Source of the DNA: Halogranum gelatinilyticum
Lineage (GTDB): Archaea; Halobacteriota; Halobacteria; Halobacteriales; Haloferacaceae
Reading direction: 5' to 3'
NCBI RefSeq assembly: GCF_900103715.1
Contig: NZ_FNHL01000005.1
Coordinates: forward strand, 62,001-126,000
Length of the DNA stretch: 64,000 nucleotides
Position numbers and translations under genes: made by a program. The notes beneath the pieces were generated by a model, which was not told the DNA's origin, searched no databases, and saw nothing but the letters and a program-made list of their open reading frames with translations. Below, one piece after another: positions 35,894 through 45,383 of this stretch; position 1 is the stretch's first letter; every line of letters begins with the position of its first letter.

Positions 35894-36325
35894 GAAAGCC
35901 CTTGGCCGCTCGGCATCCCGCGACCACCGCTGCGCTCCTCGTGCCTGCGGTGCTTGCAGGGTCGGGGGACGACCGAGACGGCCTCGCCCTTTCTGAGTCC
36001 GCCAGGATGTCGGCTGGGTTACTGAGCGTCGAGCCCGGTTGAACAGGTTCTATGTTACGGCACGCCCCGCTCGCCGCTGCCGCCCTCCGCGTCGCTCGCC
36101 ACCGACCATTCCGGGCGTGCGGGCGCTCTCCGCACCGCGAGCGCCCGTTCCGGGCTAAAATGAATCTGGTCTCGACGCCAGCGGGTATCCCCGTCGGTTG
36201 CGCCCCTTGCGGGCTTTCGCGTTCCAGCGCTTTGTGCCGCCTGCGCTGTCGCGCGCCACACGGCGGCGCGCGTTCTCGACGACAGTCGCCCTGGACACGG
36301 TCCCGCGCATCGGGCCGGACACGAG
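35894..36325 (+). repeat. GC-rich dispersed repeat, long copy 1
   Basis: About 430 bp that align along nearly the whole length with 41972-42388: shared blocks include TGCGGTGCTTGC, TCGCCG...CGCCCTCCGCGTCGCTCGC, TGAATCTGGTCTCGACGCCAGC, GCGGGCTTTCGCGTTCCAGC and CGTCGCCCTGGACACGG/GGGCCGGACACGAG. No open frame is conserved between copies, so an RNA or a non-coding mobile sequence is more likely than a gene. The 730 bp gap 35705-36435 holds nothing else but the hairpin at 36375. Confidence 0.75.
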
Positions 36326-36754: not shown

Positions 36755-37996
36755 ATGAGACGAACGAATACCTTCGATATCGTTCCCCGGTCCGAGACGA
36801 CAGAAGAGATTCTCGTACGGGTGCTAGACGCCTCGGCAAGCCTCTGGAACACACTCACCTACGACCGCCGACAGCAGTTCTTCGAAGGAGAGAGTGTCTG
36901 GGAGTGCGATGGCTACTACGACGAGTATGTCGACGTACTCGGCGGTGCGACGACCCAGCAGATTGCCCGCGTGAACGATACCGCGTGGCGGTCCTTCTTC
37001 GAGCTTCTCGACGAGCCAGAATACGATCCGAGTCCCCCCGGCTACTGGGGAAATCGAGACGATGGCCGAGAGCTGCGAACCTACATTCGAAACGACGCAT
37101 ACACGCTCCAGTGGAACGAGCGCTCACGACTGGAGATACCCATCGGAATGGACCTCAAAGACGAGTACGGGTTCGGGATGTACGAGCGGCTTCGGCTACC
37201 GGTTCGGGGCGATCCAAAGTGGTGTGGAGACGCTGGCCGCCTCGAAATCTCGTACGACTCGGTCGAAGAGACGTACCGTGTGCATCAATCCGTAACCATC
37301 GACGACGTCGAAGAGAGCAGATCAGATGGCTCCGAGTCCGCTGCACTCGATCTCGGTGCGAATGTGCTCGTCGCCTGTACGACAACGACCGGGGAGCAGT
37401 ATCTCTACAGTGGACAAACCCCGTTCGATCGGTTCCGAGAGACGACTAACGCTATCGCCAACGCCCAAGCGAAACTCCCCGACGGACAACACTCCAGTCA
37501 GCGAATCAAGCGTCTCTATCGCAAGCGCTCTCGACGGCGCGATCATGCGGTGAACGCGCTCCTCCGTGACGTAGTTGAACGGTTAGACGAAGCTGGTGTT
37601 ACAACGCTCTACCACGGCGATCTCACCGGAGTGCTCGGTGAGTACTGGTCGGTGGAGGCGAATCTCAAAGCACGGACCTTCTGGGCGCATCGGCAGTGTA
37701 TTGATAGACTCGGATCAGTCTGTGAAGAGTATGGAATCGACGTAGAAGCAATCTCGGAGGCGTGGACGTCCCAGACCTGTCCAGAATGTGGCGAACGGGA
37801 CCGAACACGCCGGCATCGAGAGACGCTCACCTGTCCGTGTGGTTTCGACGGCCACGCCGACCTCGTTGCTTCGAGAACATTACTCGAACGAGCAACGAAC
37901 ACAACAGTCAGGCCGACGGCACGGCCCGTGCGGTTCCAGTGGGACGATCACCAGTGGTTTCCCGTTGAGGGTGCCGCAGTGTCGCCCAACGAATAG
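36755..37996 (+). CDS. tnpB: TnpB-type RNA-guided nuclease-like protein, divergent
   Basis: A 413-residue TnpB. RuvC-I is ALDLGANVLV, the bridge part ends RLYRKRSRRRDHAVNALL, the zinc finger is CPEC...CPCG, and RuvC-III is GHADLVASRTLLE. The RuvC-II position, usually EDL, reads HGDLTG, with glycine in place of the catalytic glutamate. No IS200/IS605 left end is visible, and the gene is preceded by the same promoter hairpin as other cargo genes, so it may be domesticated. A TnpA is absent. Possible guide RNA sequence would lie at the 3' end. Confidence 0.8.
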   Translation: MRRTNTFDIVPRSETTEEILVRVLDASASLWNTLTYDRRQQFFEGESVWECDGYYDEYVDVLGGATTQQIARVNDTAWRSFFELLDEPEYDPSPPGYWGNRDDGRELRTYIRNDAYTLQWNERSRLEIPIGMDLKDEYGFGMYERLRLPVRGDPKWCGDAGRLEISYDSVEETYRVHQSVTIDDVEESRSDGSESAALDLGANVLVACTTTTGEQYLYSGQTPFDRFRETTNAIANAQAKLPDGQHSSQRIKRLYRKRSRRRDHAVNALLRDVVERLDEAGVTTLYHGDLTGVLGEYWSVEANLKARTFWAHRQCIDRLGSVCEEYGIDVEAISEAWTSQTCPECGERDRTRRHRETLTCPCGFDGHADLVASRTLLERATNTTVRPTARPVRFQWDDHQWFPVEGAAVSPNE

Positions 37997-41897: not shown

Positions 41898-41971
41898 ATG
41901 AACAGTGGACAACACTGTGTCAAACGTCTTCTGGAGGGACAAACAGCTGCTAGCGTTTGGTGCGGTCACCT

Positions 41972-42388
41972 CGAAAGCCCCCGGACGCTCGCCGGCCGTG
42001 ACTCGCTGTGCGCCTCGTTCCTGCGGTGCTTGCGTCGTCGGGGCACGTCGGGCGTCCGGCCCCTTTCAGTCCCGCCCGGAGTCTGTTGCTAGGCTCGTGA
42101 TCCCCATCGGTTGACTGGTGTGGTACTATACGGCACGCACCGCTCGCCGCATTCCGCCCTCCGCGTCGCTCGCGACCGACCATTCCGGGCTGCGCCGAGC
42201 AAGCTCGGCGTTCCGGGCTAAAGTGAATCTGGTCTCGACGCCAGCATTAAGCGCGTTTTCGGTTGCGCCCCTCGCGGGCTTTCGCGTTCCAGCGCTTTGG
42301 GCCGTTCCGCGCGGCGAGTCATACCACGACTCGCCGTGCTCACGACCGTCGCCCTGGACACGGACTCGCAGTCCGGGCCGGACACGAG
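41972..42388 (+). repeat. GC-rich dispersed repeat, long copy 2
   Basis: Aligns with 35894-36325 (see that entry for shared blocks). Inside it GGCGAGTC-N7-GACTCGCC (42315-42337) forms a perfect stem that copy 1 lacks, so hairpins vary between copies. It leads directly into the structured leader of the OB-fold gene. Confidence 0.75.
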
Positions 42389-42459
42389 AAACGGCTTAAA
42401 GCTGGACGCTCGCTCCGGGCGGGTCGGCGCGCGGTGCTGGTTGGGTGACCTTCCTTTGG

Positions 42460-42605
42460 CGCGCTCTCGCTCGCGCCCCAGGGGGCGCTCACGAAGGCGC
42501 GAGCGAGAGCGCGTAGAAGGTTCTGTCGGGCGTTGTCGTCGGAAAACCGCGATGTTGGTGCATCGCGGTGTCGGGCGCGTGTGCGCCTTCGGATCAGTGA
42601 GATCC
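42460..42605 (+). promoter_or_regulatory. Structured leader upstream of OB-fold gene
   Basis: Three perfect hairpins follow each other: an 18 bp stem (42460-42477 with 42496-42513, 18-nt loop), CCGCGATG-TTGGTG-CATCGCGG (42547-42568), and GGATC-AGTGA-GATCC (42591-42605), the last ending one base before the ATG. A stem of 18 perfect GC-rich pairs is far above chance. It may be a cis-acting RNA or a replication/transfer signal. Confidence 0.6.
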
Positions 42606-42606
42606 A

Positions 42607-43503
42607 ATGTCAAGTAAGAACGCAACGAGTAATGTAGTTTCGGTCGATGAACAGGCGTTCGAGAAACAAAGCGAAGCAGCGGTCGACGAGGACGGCTTCG
42701 AGGTCGTCGATGAGACGCCGGAATTCAGAGCGACGGTGCAGATGGAAGTGCAAGCGAAGGTGGATGCGAACCACCCGGACGGAATCGTCGACACGAGCGA
42801 GGAGCGCATCTACGGGGCAACCCTCGAACAGGAAGAGCGCATTCGGGGCCGCGAGGAAGAGCTGGAGCGCATCAGTGCACGAGCGACGTTCGGAACGCAA
42901 GCGGGACGAGAAGAGCGGTCGCGAGACGTGGCGGCGAAACGAAATGAGGAGCGACGGACGGCGTTCCAGAAGCGAGCGGCGAGCGTGGATGTGTGGGCAG
43001 ATCCAGATAGAGGCGATCCGCGTGAAGAACTGACGAAGGAGCAGTTGGCGGCGGTGAACACCCAGGCGGTGCGATTGAGCGAGAAGCTCGATGGCTGGTC
43101 GCGAGCGGCGATTGGGCGGCGACTCGGTGAGGCCGTGGTCGGTGGGAAGGACATGATGAGCGCGGTCGTCAGTGTGTTCGAGGCGTTGCAGACGGTGCCG
43201 GGACAGGTAGTTCCCATCGGGAAGCTCGAGGACGTGAATCGCAAAGAGGTGCGTATTGCGGGGCGTGTCGAGACACTGTGGGTTCCCTCGCATCCGAGTA
43301 TCGCTCAAGTGGGCCTCATCGCCGACGATAGTGGAAAAACCAGAGTGACGGTCTGGAAAGCGTCGAATGCACCCCTGATGGACGAGGGCGAGCAGGTGCG
43401 CATCGATGGTGCGGCGCGGAACTGGTACGAAGGACGTGTCTCCCTGGCCGTCACCGGGTGGTCGAGTCTCACTTTCCCTGAGCGCGGTCGGTGGTGGGAA
43501 TAG
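42607..43503 (+). CDS. OB-fold DNA-binding protein (RPA/SSB-like)
   Basis: A 298-residue protein. The N-terminal 60 residues include FRATVQMEVQAKVD; the middle is a long helical basic part (ATLEQEERIRGREEELERI to RTAFQKRAASVDVW); the C-terminal 90 residues are an OB-fold: VNRKEVRIAGRVETLW, QVGLIADDSGKTRVTVWK, GEQVRIDGAARNWYEGRVSLAVTGWSSL, the pattern of RPA-type single-stranded DNA-binding domains. Such proteins are common on haloarchaeal plasmids. It probably protects single-stranded DNA of the element. Confidence 0.78.
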   Translation: MSSKNATSNVVSVDEQAFEKQSEAAVDEDGFEVVDETPEFRATVQMEVQAKVDANHPDGIVDTSEERIYGATLEQEERIRGREEELERISARATFGTQAGREERSRDVAAKRNEERRTAFQKRAASVDVWADPDRGDPREELTKEQLAAVNTQAVRLSEKLDGWSRAAIGRRLGEAVVGGKDMMSAVVSVFEALQTVPGQVVPIGKLEDVNRKEVRIAGRVETLWVPSHPSIAQVGLIADDSGKTRVTVWKASNAPLMDEGEQVRIDGAARNWYEGRVSLAVTGWSSLTFPERGRWWE

Positions 43504-43662
43504 CCGGACGACGTGGCCTTCTTTTTTGCTACGTGCCCGTTCGCCCACTTCCCGCCGCCCCACCCAACCTCCACGTTCCGGGCAACTCGCAGAGCCGCCG
43601 GGCTTTCGCTATCGTTCGGTAGCGAGTTCGCTCCGTATCGGCGGTCTTGAATTGTTATCGAG

Positions 43663-43716
43663 TGGTGACAGGTTTCTGAGGCCGTGCTGAACTCAGGGCG
43701 CGAGTCGGTCAGTGAC
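43663..43716 (+). repeat. Cassette repeat, half-site A
   Basis: GGTGACAGGTTTCTGAGGCCGTGCTGAACTCAGGGCGCGAGTCGGTCAGTG-type sequence; nearly the same as the inverted copy at 48601-48653. The last codons of the NUDIX gene lie within it. Confidence 0.75.
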
Positions 43717-44248
43717 TGTCCCACGTTGAGACGTGTTCCTCCACGAAGTCAAGAACGTTTTCTGGAAGTTCTGAGAACCATTTCGCCTCCAACACCTCCT
43801 CGTCACTGATCGAGATGGAACCACCGTCGTACTCTGCATTGAAAATGACCGTCAGCATACAGTACCGCTCACCGGGATTGGGTGCCAGCACGATGGTCTT
43901 CCGCCGGGCATAGTTTACGCCCGTAATGGTGCATTCGACTCCAGTCTCTTCACGTACTTCCCGACGTGTGGTTTCTTCCATTGTTTCCCCCGGTTTGTGT
44001 CCGCCACCCGGAATCCCCCACTCGTTCGGTGAACCTTCATGTCGAATCAATAGCACCCGATTCGCATCATCAGTTATCCACGCACCAGCGTCGCCAATCC
44101 ATCCCTCTTCTGCCATCTCCTCCCCTTGTTTGAAGTAATCCGGGTTATTCTCGACAGTCTCTTCGTGAACAGGGAACGGGCCGTACCCTTCCTGTAACCG
44201 GTCAATCCGTCGGCAGACCTCTTCCCGAGTTTTCTTCTCGATATTCAT
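43709..44248 (-). CDS. NUDIX hydrolase in a repeat-flanked cassette
   Basis: A 179-residue protein. The Nudix box is GGGHKPGETMEETTRREVREETG (matching Gx5Ex7REUxEExGU, about residues 81-103), preceded by the strand AWITDDANRVLLIRHEG. It hydrolyses a nucleoside diphosphate derivative; the substrate cannot be told. It lies alone between half-site A (43663) and half-site B (44286), and its stop codon is inside A, so gene and repeats appear to move as a unit. Confidence 0.88.
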   Translation of the reverse strand: MNIEKKTREEVCRRIDRLQEGYGPFPVHEETVENNPDYFKQGEEMAEEGWIGDAGAWITDDANRVLLIRHEGSPNEWGIPGGGHKPGETMEETTRREVREETGVECTITGVNYARRKTIVLAPNPGERYCMLTVIFNAEYDGGSISISDEEVLEAKWFSELPENVLDFVEEHVSTWDSH

Positions 44249-44285
44249 GCTTCCGGATACACATTCGACATGGAAGATAGTCTTT

Positions 44286-44330
44286 GATGACTACACCCTC
44301 TAAGTTCAGCACGCACTTTCTGTCAGACTC
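44286..44330 (-). repeat. Cassette repeat, half-site B (inverted)
   Basis: On the minus strand CTGACAGAAAGTGCGTGCTGAACTTAGAGGGTGTAGTCA, almost identical to 48204-48246. Right flank of the NUDIX cassette, 38 bp before its start codon. Confidence 0.75.
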
Positions 44331-44365
44331 CGAGGAATTAGACGAGACCGCAGTGTTGTTTTTCT

Positions 44366-44385
44366 GCCCCTGAGGGGTGAGGGGC
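44366..44385 (+). promoter_or_regulatory. Cargo hairpin motif 5
   Basis: GCCCC (44366-44370), loop TGAGGGGTGA, GGGGC (44381-44385), behind TTGTTTTTCT. It ends 41 bp before the TFB ATG. Confidence 0.65.
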
Positions 44386-44426
44386 GCAAGAGATTCGCGA
44401 TTCGTCTAGTGTCCCTCGTGAGTACC

Positions 44427-45383
44427 ATGGCAACGAGAGATATCTACGAAACGGCCTTCGACGAAGACGTCCAGTGTGAGTCCAGTTCGAACTACTGTCC
44501 CGAATGCAACGGGCACGTCGCGACCAACGCAGTGGAAACGGCCTGTGAAGACTGTGGGCTGGTCATCGCCGACCAGCAGATCGACCACGGCCCCGAGTGG
44601 CGCTCGTTCGAAGACGGCGACAACAACCGCGAACGGACGGGTGCTCCTCTCACAGCGGCCCGTCACGACCGGGGCTTATCGACTACGATCGGGCGTAGAA
44701 CTGATGCGAAGGGACGCACGCTCTCTGGGTCGAAACGATGTCAGCTTGCCCGACTGCGACGTGAGCAGACGCGGGGGCGGTTCCAGTCGAAAGCCGAGCG
44801 CAACCTCGCACACGGCTTGGGTGAGATCCGAAGAATCACGAGTGCCCTCGGACTTGCTGACTCGGTTCGAGAGCAAGCGTGTCAGCTCTTTCGCAGTGCC
44901 CAACGCGAGGACCTCTTGCTTGGTCGGTCGATTGAAGCAATCGCTGCCGCCAGCGTCTATGGAGTCTGTCGGTGTCACGGACGGCCAGTCGCCCGTGATG
45001 ACTTCGTCGACGTTGCTCGAGTCGACCACTCGGGTGTCACGAACGCGTACAAAACGCTCAATAAAGAGTTGGGACTCCCGACACAGCCCGTCGCCCCACA
45101 ATCGCTGATTCCCAAACTCGCTTCGGAACTCGGTGTCGGGAAACGGATTCGTCGTCGAGCGCGAACGCTTGCCGAGCGTGCGCATGAGACGTCCATTACG
45201 AACGGCTATCAGCCGTCTGGGGTTGCTGCAGCCTGTCTTTATCTCGCCGGTCGTGAACATGGTCAGTCGCTGACACAGACACAGGTTGCTGAAGCCGCTG
45301 GAACGACGCCGACGACACTTCGAGCGCGACGTGCAGAACTTACCGAGCTGATTGACGGGGAGGTCCAAGTCGCATCGCCATAG
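44427..45383 (+). CDS. tfb: Transcription initiation factor B (TFB)
   Basis: A 318-residue TFIIB homologue: N-terminal zinc ribbon CPEC...CEDC (about residues 22-43), B-finger/linker (REQTRGRFQSKAERN), then two cyclin repeats (about 120-205, with GRSIEAIAAASVYGVCR, and 215-310, with GYQPSGVAAACLYLAG). Length is normal for haloarchaeal TFBs. The ATG at 44427 is preferred to one at 44409. Haloarchaea use several TFBs to select promoters, so this one may recognise the unusual hairpin promoters of the island. Confidence 0.92.
   Translation: MATRDIYETAFDEDVQCESSSNYCPECNGHVATNAVETACEDCGLVIADQQIDHGPEWRSFEDGDNNRERTGAPLTAARHDRGLSTTIGRRTDAKGRTLSGSKRCQLARLRREQTRGRFQSKAERNLAHGLGEIRRITSALGLADSVREQACQLFRSAQREDLLLGRSIEAIAAASVYGVCRCHGRPVARDDFVDVARVDHSGVTNAYKTLNKELGLPTQPVAPQSLIPKLASELGVGKRIRRRARTLAERAHETSITNGYQPSGVAAACLYLAGREHGQSLTQTQVAEAAGTTPTTLRARRAELTELIDGEVQVASP

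Follow-up and report, generated by a model that had tools for sequence, protein, structure and literature searches.

The window analysed here, a stretch of 64,000 nt, comes from a haloarchaeal, plasmid-like contig of 214,766 bases. It carries on its plus strand a gene for a 298-aa protein, preceded by a long conserved leader whose helices run up to the start codon. The features are as follows.

41973-42606, plus strand: whole conserved leader, ~640 nt, before the OB-fold gene, sharply bounded on its 5' side at GAAAGCCC
42246-42400, plus strand: middle segment, variable; about half of the relatives have unrelated sequence in its place
42460-42513, plus strand: P2, made up of P2a (42460-42472/42501-42513) and the apical P2b (42473-42478/42483-42488)
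42493-42500, plus strand: GAAGGCGC, invariant, 5' half of a possible pseudoknot, flanked by P2b and the 3' arm of P2a
42547-42568, plus strand: P3, hairpin CCGCGATG/CATCGCGG, with two-sided changes in relatives
42574-42587, plus strand: P4, hairpin GGCGC-GTGT-GCGCC (arms 42574-42578/42583-42587)
42583-42590, plus strand: GCGCCTTC, invariant, 3' half of the possible pseudoknot, immediately before P5
42591-42605, plus strand: P5, hairpin GGATC-AGTGA-GATCC, ending one base before the ATG, hypervariable yet paired in relatives
42607-43503, plus strand: gene for the 298-aa OB-fold protein, with a predicted domain for binding single-stranded nucleic acid (residues ~205-288)
43522-43527, plus strand: T6 run after the stop codon of the OB gene, a probable terminator

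The last third of the gene probably encodes an RPA/SSB-type OB fold. Its matches were weak but consistent and included Pfam PF01336 (25.8 bits, where the cut-off is 27), a partial match to NCBIfam replication factor A, and the structure 2kbn (phmmer, E = 4.7e-9). The predicted structure of the protein was poor (pLDDT 54.5).

BLAST comparison of the upstream region with relatives (the best 80 among 160 from genome contigs) placed the 5' edge of conservation at 41970-41973, with little similarity further upstream, and this edge holds in loci whose upstream DNA is unrelated. The last 205 nt of the leader were matched in about 70 to 81 of 81 sequences, mostly at ~80 to 90% identity, and the middle segment was covered in only ~40 to 48 of the 81, compared with ~70 on either flank. 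Downstream of the gene, 59 of 83 alignments lost similarity at 43560-43590, shortly past the T6 run. Ten TATA-like patterns were sought within 500 nt before the ATG at 77 loci and none was found, which fits a long transcribed leader with its promoter upstream of the leader.

Parts of the leader also occur elsewhere. A 75%-identical copy of its 5' domain, with neither core nor OB gene, lies at 35894-36325 of the window, upstream of a TnpB-like gene (36755-37996). When the leader-gene unit was examined for IS200/IS605-like ends, its edges were sharp, but no transposase accompanied it, and the TnpB gene at 36755 adjoins only the partial copy of the 5' domain. A dispersed noncoding element of ~330 bp, which starts with CTCGAAAGCCC and contains CCCCTTTCAGTCCCACCC, is present in ~22 copies in the same genome (L006 to L030) and has only ~112 nt in common with the 5' end of the leader (41968-42079), at roughly 70% identity. 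The exact 19-mer GTCCCCTTTCAGTCCCACC occurs nine times in this genome and three times in one congener and is absent from 38 others. Partial tandem duplicates of the leader core were seen directly upstream of an intact core at L112 (2748-2845) and in G205 (C63/C84).

The original prediction, made from the letters of the window, described a perfect 18-bp stem and two more hairpins before the OB-fold gene, and these elements proved to be the 3' portion of the ~640-nt leader. The arms of the stem (42460-42477/42496-42513) are fully complementary, with 18 nt between them, and the stem extends at 88% pairing to 42453-42477/42496-42520. The further hairpins are P3 (arms 42547-42554/42561-42568) and P5 (arms 42591-42595/42601-42605), the latter stopping one base short of the ATG (42607); P4 was not part of that description. 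The complementarity of the 18-bp stem stands, but its top 5 bp (GCGCC/GGCGC) have a competitor, the apical hairpin GCGCCC-N2-4-GGGCGC, which is kept in relatives (L226, L227, and L258) in which the top 5 bp cannot form. A 181-nt region folded at -97.4 kcal/mol; 200 dinucleotide-shuffled versions of it gave -73.3 ± 4.15 kcal/mol (z = -5.8), and no shuffle reached so low an energy.

Both P2a and P2b have undergone two-sided changes across groups of relatives. P2 is almost invariant inside the main group, so the stronger structural evidence comes from diverged loci, where P2a arms include GCGCTCTCGCTC, GCGCGCCGCTC, CCGCGCC, TTCGCGA, and GTGTGCGCCACTC, each with a complementary 3' arm, in some cases with a single mismatch. 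P2b takes the forms GCGCCC, GCCCCC, GCCCGGC, and GCCCGTC, with matching 3' arms apart from mismatches in a few (6 of 162 leaders were not parsable for P2). P3 appears as CCCCGTG/CACGGGG, CCCCACTG/CAGTGGGG, or CCACGGCT/AGTCGTGG, and in diverged groups P2 and P3 are rebuilt from other letters with the topology unchanged. The loop of P4 is often GTGA in relatives; its 5' arm is variable and has been replaced in group 3 (L051, L088, and L090). The variant leader of this group (L051, L088, L090, L097, L210, L233, and L237) has P3 as CCACGGCT/AGTCGTGG and, opposite GCGCCTTC, a local GAAGACGC; L237 is without P2 and contains GCGTCTTC, a perfect match to GAAGACGC.

In an alignment of 96 distinct rows fitted to a covariance model (A4), a procedure that favours the structure of the model, 97.2% of cells were paired, and 15 pairs and 133 cells had changed on both sides, compared with 36.8 cells in shuffles; when the partners were slid, at most 57.9% of cells were paired and 14 had changed on both sides. 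RNAalifold run on a plain MAFFT alignment recovered little except the pairing of GAAGGCGC with GCGCCTTC, because sequence aligners misalign P5.

GAAGGCGC and GCGCCTTC are perfectly complementary in 179 of 202 rows; 5 rows keep the pairing through G-U, 14 lose the last pair alone (C-A), and the other 4 were judged false pattern matches. Complementarity is present in 98.3% of cells, and the two motifs, unlike the other helices, are too invariant to covary. They could form a pseudoknot beside P5. This pairing and P4 both use GCGCCTTC and are mutually exclusive, and the alternative between them is a possible switch.

P5 combines hypervariability with kept pairing. At least four Watson-Crick pairs are found in 96 of 115 distinct versions, the other 19 being without a 4-bp hairpin, and the 3' arm stops one base before the ATG in 76 of the 96 hairpin versions. 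In an earlier set, from which 11 of 186 rows had been dropped beforehand, 85 of 103 versions were paired, whereas 500 shuffles gave 9.6 on average and never more than 20; one distinct string (13 rows) lying inside the coding region is counted among the 103 and was excluded from later P5 analyses. P5 changes in sequence more rapidly than third codon positions do. Among 36 leader pairs at 96 to 98% identity, P5 differs by 20%, third codon positions by 7.5%, and the leader core by 5%, and among 328 leader pairs ~95% identical over the first 240 to 300 nt of the gene, only 9% have the same P5. Two relatives (L121 and L142) agree at every position of the 100 nt upstream and differ at just 11 of the 300 nt downstream, yet their P5s, of 18 and 27 nt, are unrelated. 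P5 types recur on backgrounds with only 55 to 58% gene identity. Shorter versions that have no hairpin also occur, such as AGGAACTACA before the ATG, so that new hairpins could, speculatively, be created by inverted duplication of a short arm.

The P5 loop contains an SD-like 4-mer in 65 of the 96 hairpin versions, compared with 23.0 expected from loop shuffles (maximum of 36 in 1,000). The anti-SD sequence used for this count is one that we take to be correct; the 16S tail CTGGATCACCTCCT had no match in the assembly of the same genome. A role of the loop in SD pairing is doubtful, since most Haloferax volcanii mRNAs are leaderless and leaderless initiation is favoured there (PMC4983044, in excerpt), and since translation of sod in that species is independent of SD pairing, the SD being dispensable (PMC3986360, in excerpt). 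P5 is also unlikely to be the protein's specific contact, as it differs between near-identical proteins. The idea that P5 serves as a barcode separating resident copies was rejected for now: P5 was common to 3 of 82 within-genome pairs (9 pairs representing the same locus twice having been removed), and ~2 were expected from between-genome pairs of equal identity, an expectation worked out by hand. A search for a hidden partner covered upstream stretches of ~520 nt and 400 nt downstream for 110 of 162 leaders (the ones whose flanks were long enough and whose P5 measured at least 14 nt), and reverse complements of P5 words were no more common there than with shuffled P5s.

The conservation of structure near homologues, on which the original prediction hinged, was found: across the Halobacteria, homologous genes are preceded by the same kind of sequence or fold. 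A covariance model (R1) was built for the final 157 nt of the leader from 25 sequences, with the structure set by hand; it matched 157 of 292 Halobacteria genomes and 57 of 77 genera (E ≤ 0.001). The leader and gene together matched 171 of 72,556 plasmid records, and the organism names listed were haloarchaeal. The leader is mostly plasmid-borne, with examples on pNRC100 of Halobacterium NRC-1 (OB gene VNG_RS12910) and pHME132 of Haloferax mediterranei, where the GAAAGCCC edge lies some 540 to 730 nt ahead of the ATG, but chromosomal copies exist too, and several copies may be present per genome and even per replicon. One scan of viral contigs yielded no viral relatives. Conservation of the leader core exceeds that of the gene's DNA at gene identities of 70 to 85%, and the leader is retained where the OB protein is only 30 to 37% identical (G282).

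Coupling to the OB family was surveyed in 16 genomes, hand-picked, many for their multiple copies, so that the fractions do not describe a random sample. R1 gave 121 rows, of which 52 were dropped as opposite-strand echoes of the self-complementary P2. Among the remaining 69 sense matches, 57 stand directly before an ORF of the OB family (56 at -20 to +130 nt and one at -24); the others comprise 6 before TFIIB-like genes, 2 partial tandem copies, 1 running into a contig end, and 3 weak matches. Seen from the gene, the leader is present at 57 of 63 OB-family ORF matches, and the 6 that lack it are fragments. This count omits 20 of the 83 rows, in which the match was weak or short and fell mostly on chromosomal RPA-like genes.

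The leader transfers as a unit to the TFIIB-like genes, whose plasmid relatives are annotated as belonging to the transcription initiation factor IIB family. At the TFIIB-like loci inspected (L367, L368, L371, and L373), the upstream domain is identical in kind. Five of six TFIIB-like genes open with nearly identical codons, encoding MSSNNAS or MSSNYAS, though one of these has lost its ATG; a similar N terminus (MSSNNAS) is found on OB proteins. TFIIB-like (TFB) genes with the leader were recorded at L354 to L358, L364, L371, and L373. At H61 the TFB gene ends a cluster of small genes like that of the OB gene at H16, and WP_058365798.1 is common to both. In the window, a NUDIX gene on the minus strand separates the OB gene from a TFB gene (43709-45383), and in PHS2 of Halobacterium salinarum a TFB gene directly follows the OB gene.

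Taken together, these comparisons point to a cis-acting RNA leader that works at translation initiation and forms a new family in haloarchaea (probability about 0.68). Its coupling to the OB family and its arrangement around the start codon favour translational control. We infer that it is transcribed as RNA, with P2a, P2b, and P3 as a scaffold that would hold GAAGGCGC unpaired. Free GAAGGCGC would then pair with GCGCCTTC in the pseudoknot, in competition with the local hairpin P4, and P5, right behind GCGCCTTC, would expose or hide the start region. Feedback by the OB protein itself on its own leader, suggested by analogy, is a tentative part of this reading, with somewhat less than an even chance: protein in excess over its single-stranded DNA targets may bind the folded leader and block initiation, as T4 gp32 does, and TFIIB-like genes with the leader may answer in trans to the OB protein. 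The proposal of an autoregulatory RNA is accordingly supported as far as sequence goes, by a conserved structure with compensatory changes that ends at the start codon and by its presence at nearly all OB-family matches, while binding and the direction of regulation are conjectural.

A serious competitor, though one we would not bet on, is an RNA element of another kind, either a P4/pseudoknot switch answering the ribosome, a helicase, salt, or a small ligand, or processing at P5 that gives a leaderless mRNA. The mutually exclusive use of GCGCCTTC would suit such a switch, the leader also precedes TFIIB-like genes, which need not adjoin an OB gene, and the preference of H. volcanii for leaderless initiation (PMC4983044, in excerpt) would suit processing. 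No ligand pocket or cleavage motif was recognised in the leader, however, no Rfam family matched it, and the strong coupling to the OB family points to the OB protein as the partner.

It is improbable that the locus is a DNA element (a replication origin, a transfer site, or inverted repeats controlling transcription) whose RNA folding is incidental. P2 is a near-perfect DNA palindrome that was matched on the opposite strand too, GAAGGCGC and GCGCCTTC are invariant inverted motifs, some leader copies lie on MPF_T-typed plasmids, and counts of G-U versus A-C in the model alignment, in which P5 rows are shifted, are compatible with either strand and with DNA as well as RNA. Against a DNA element stand the multiple copies per genome and on one replicon, the chromosomal copies, and the fixed one-base distance between P5 and the ATG; in our judgement, the compensated P3 and P5 are also too short for DNA cruciforms. 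The origin or transfer site that the original prediction had offered as its second possibility is not supported, given the multiple copies, the constant placement relative to an ATG, and the leader's presence on TFIIB-like genes.

Equally improbable is a mobile gene cassette in which the leader is a recombination hot spot, leader and first codons being swapped between genes with P5 as the breakpoint. Such swapping would account for the sharp edges at both ends, for the same leader and similar N terminus on OB and TFIIB-like genes, and for the reappearance of P5 types on distant backgrounds. It would, however, need two crossovers within tens of bases to explain the near-identical flanks of L121 and L142, and it leaves the kept pairing of P5 unexplained. 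Coincidence, or functionless GC-rich low-complexity sequence whose arms (GCGCTCTCGC) fold readily, has a negligible claim; the core's conservation beyond that of the gene speaks against it, and it is already refuted by the spread across genera, the two-sided changes in the A4 alignment, and the excess of paired P5s over shuffles.

Rfam 15 gave four matches to the window between 41000 and 44000 at E values up to 10, all to miRNA or sRNA models and below the gathering score, and none to 18 leader loci. Literature searches found no such leader in titles or opening abstracts; the subscription literature was mostly outside their scope, which makes them weak evidence of absence. Among known systems, the operator of T4 gene 32 has a pseudoknot, and gp32 has an OB fold. 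The T4 and RB69 gene 32 operators resemble the present case as structured leaders that precede the start of a gene for a single-strand-binding protein, and their sequences diverge while similar structures are kept (excerpts of PMC535899). The haloarchaeal leader differs from them in being archaeal, ~640 nt long, and mostly plasmid-borne, with P2 and P3 as a scaffold and, at the ATG, a hairpin that is hypervariable but paired, and in also serving TFIIB-like genes; repression, moreover, is here something we infer. The S15 r-leader of Halobacteria is likewise a predicted haloarchaeal cis-regulatory RNA found by covariation (excerpts of PMC7247131). Unlike the archaeal ribosomal-protein leaders, the present one is much longer, stands before other genes, involves no r-protein, and has no Rfam 15 match. 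The cspA cold-shock mRNA, which is bacterial and chromosomal, has a long structured 5' untranslated region before a gene for an OB-fold single-strand-binding protein and is similar in this layout; to our knowledge, its leader has no hypervariable start hairpin. The control RNAs of ColE1- and R1-type plasmids have fast-evolving hairpins and so resemble P5 as a hypervariable but paired plasmid hairpin; unlike them, co-resident leaders do not avoid sharing P5, and the search of nearby sequence revealed no complementary partner.

Few archaeal cis-regulatory RNAs are known (PMC7247131, in the part available), and structured leaders have been called "not typical in haloarchaea" (PMC4983044, in the part available). 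More than half of the Halobacteria genomes sampled contain the leader described here, and the replicons that carry it include some from culturable strains. A bolder extension, which we regard as unlikely though worth stating, is that the plasmid OB-fold and TFIIB-like genes form one post-transcriptional regulon and that the start hairpin is actively diversified with its pairing preserved, either in an RNA arms race over the ribosome-entry site or by inverted-duplication mutagenesis dedicated to that site. The leader makes the start of haloarchaeal translation on structured mRNAs directly testable, and the evolution of P5 calls for an explanation.
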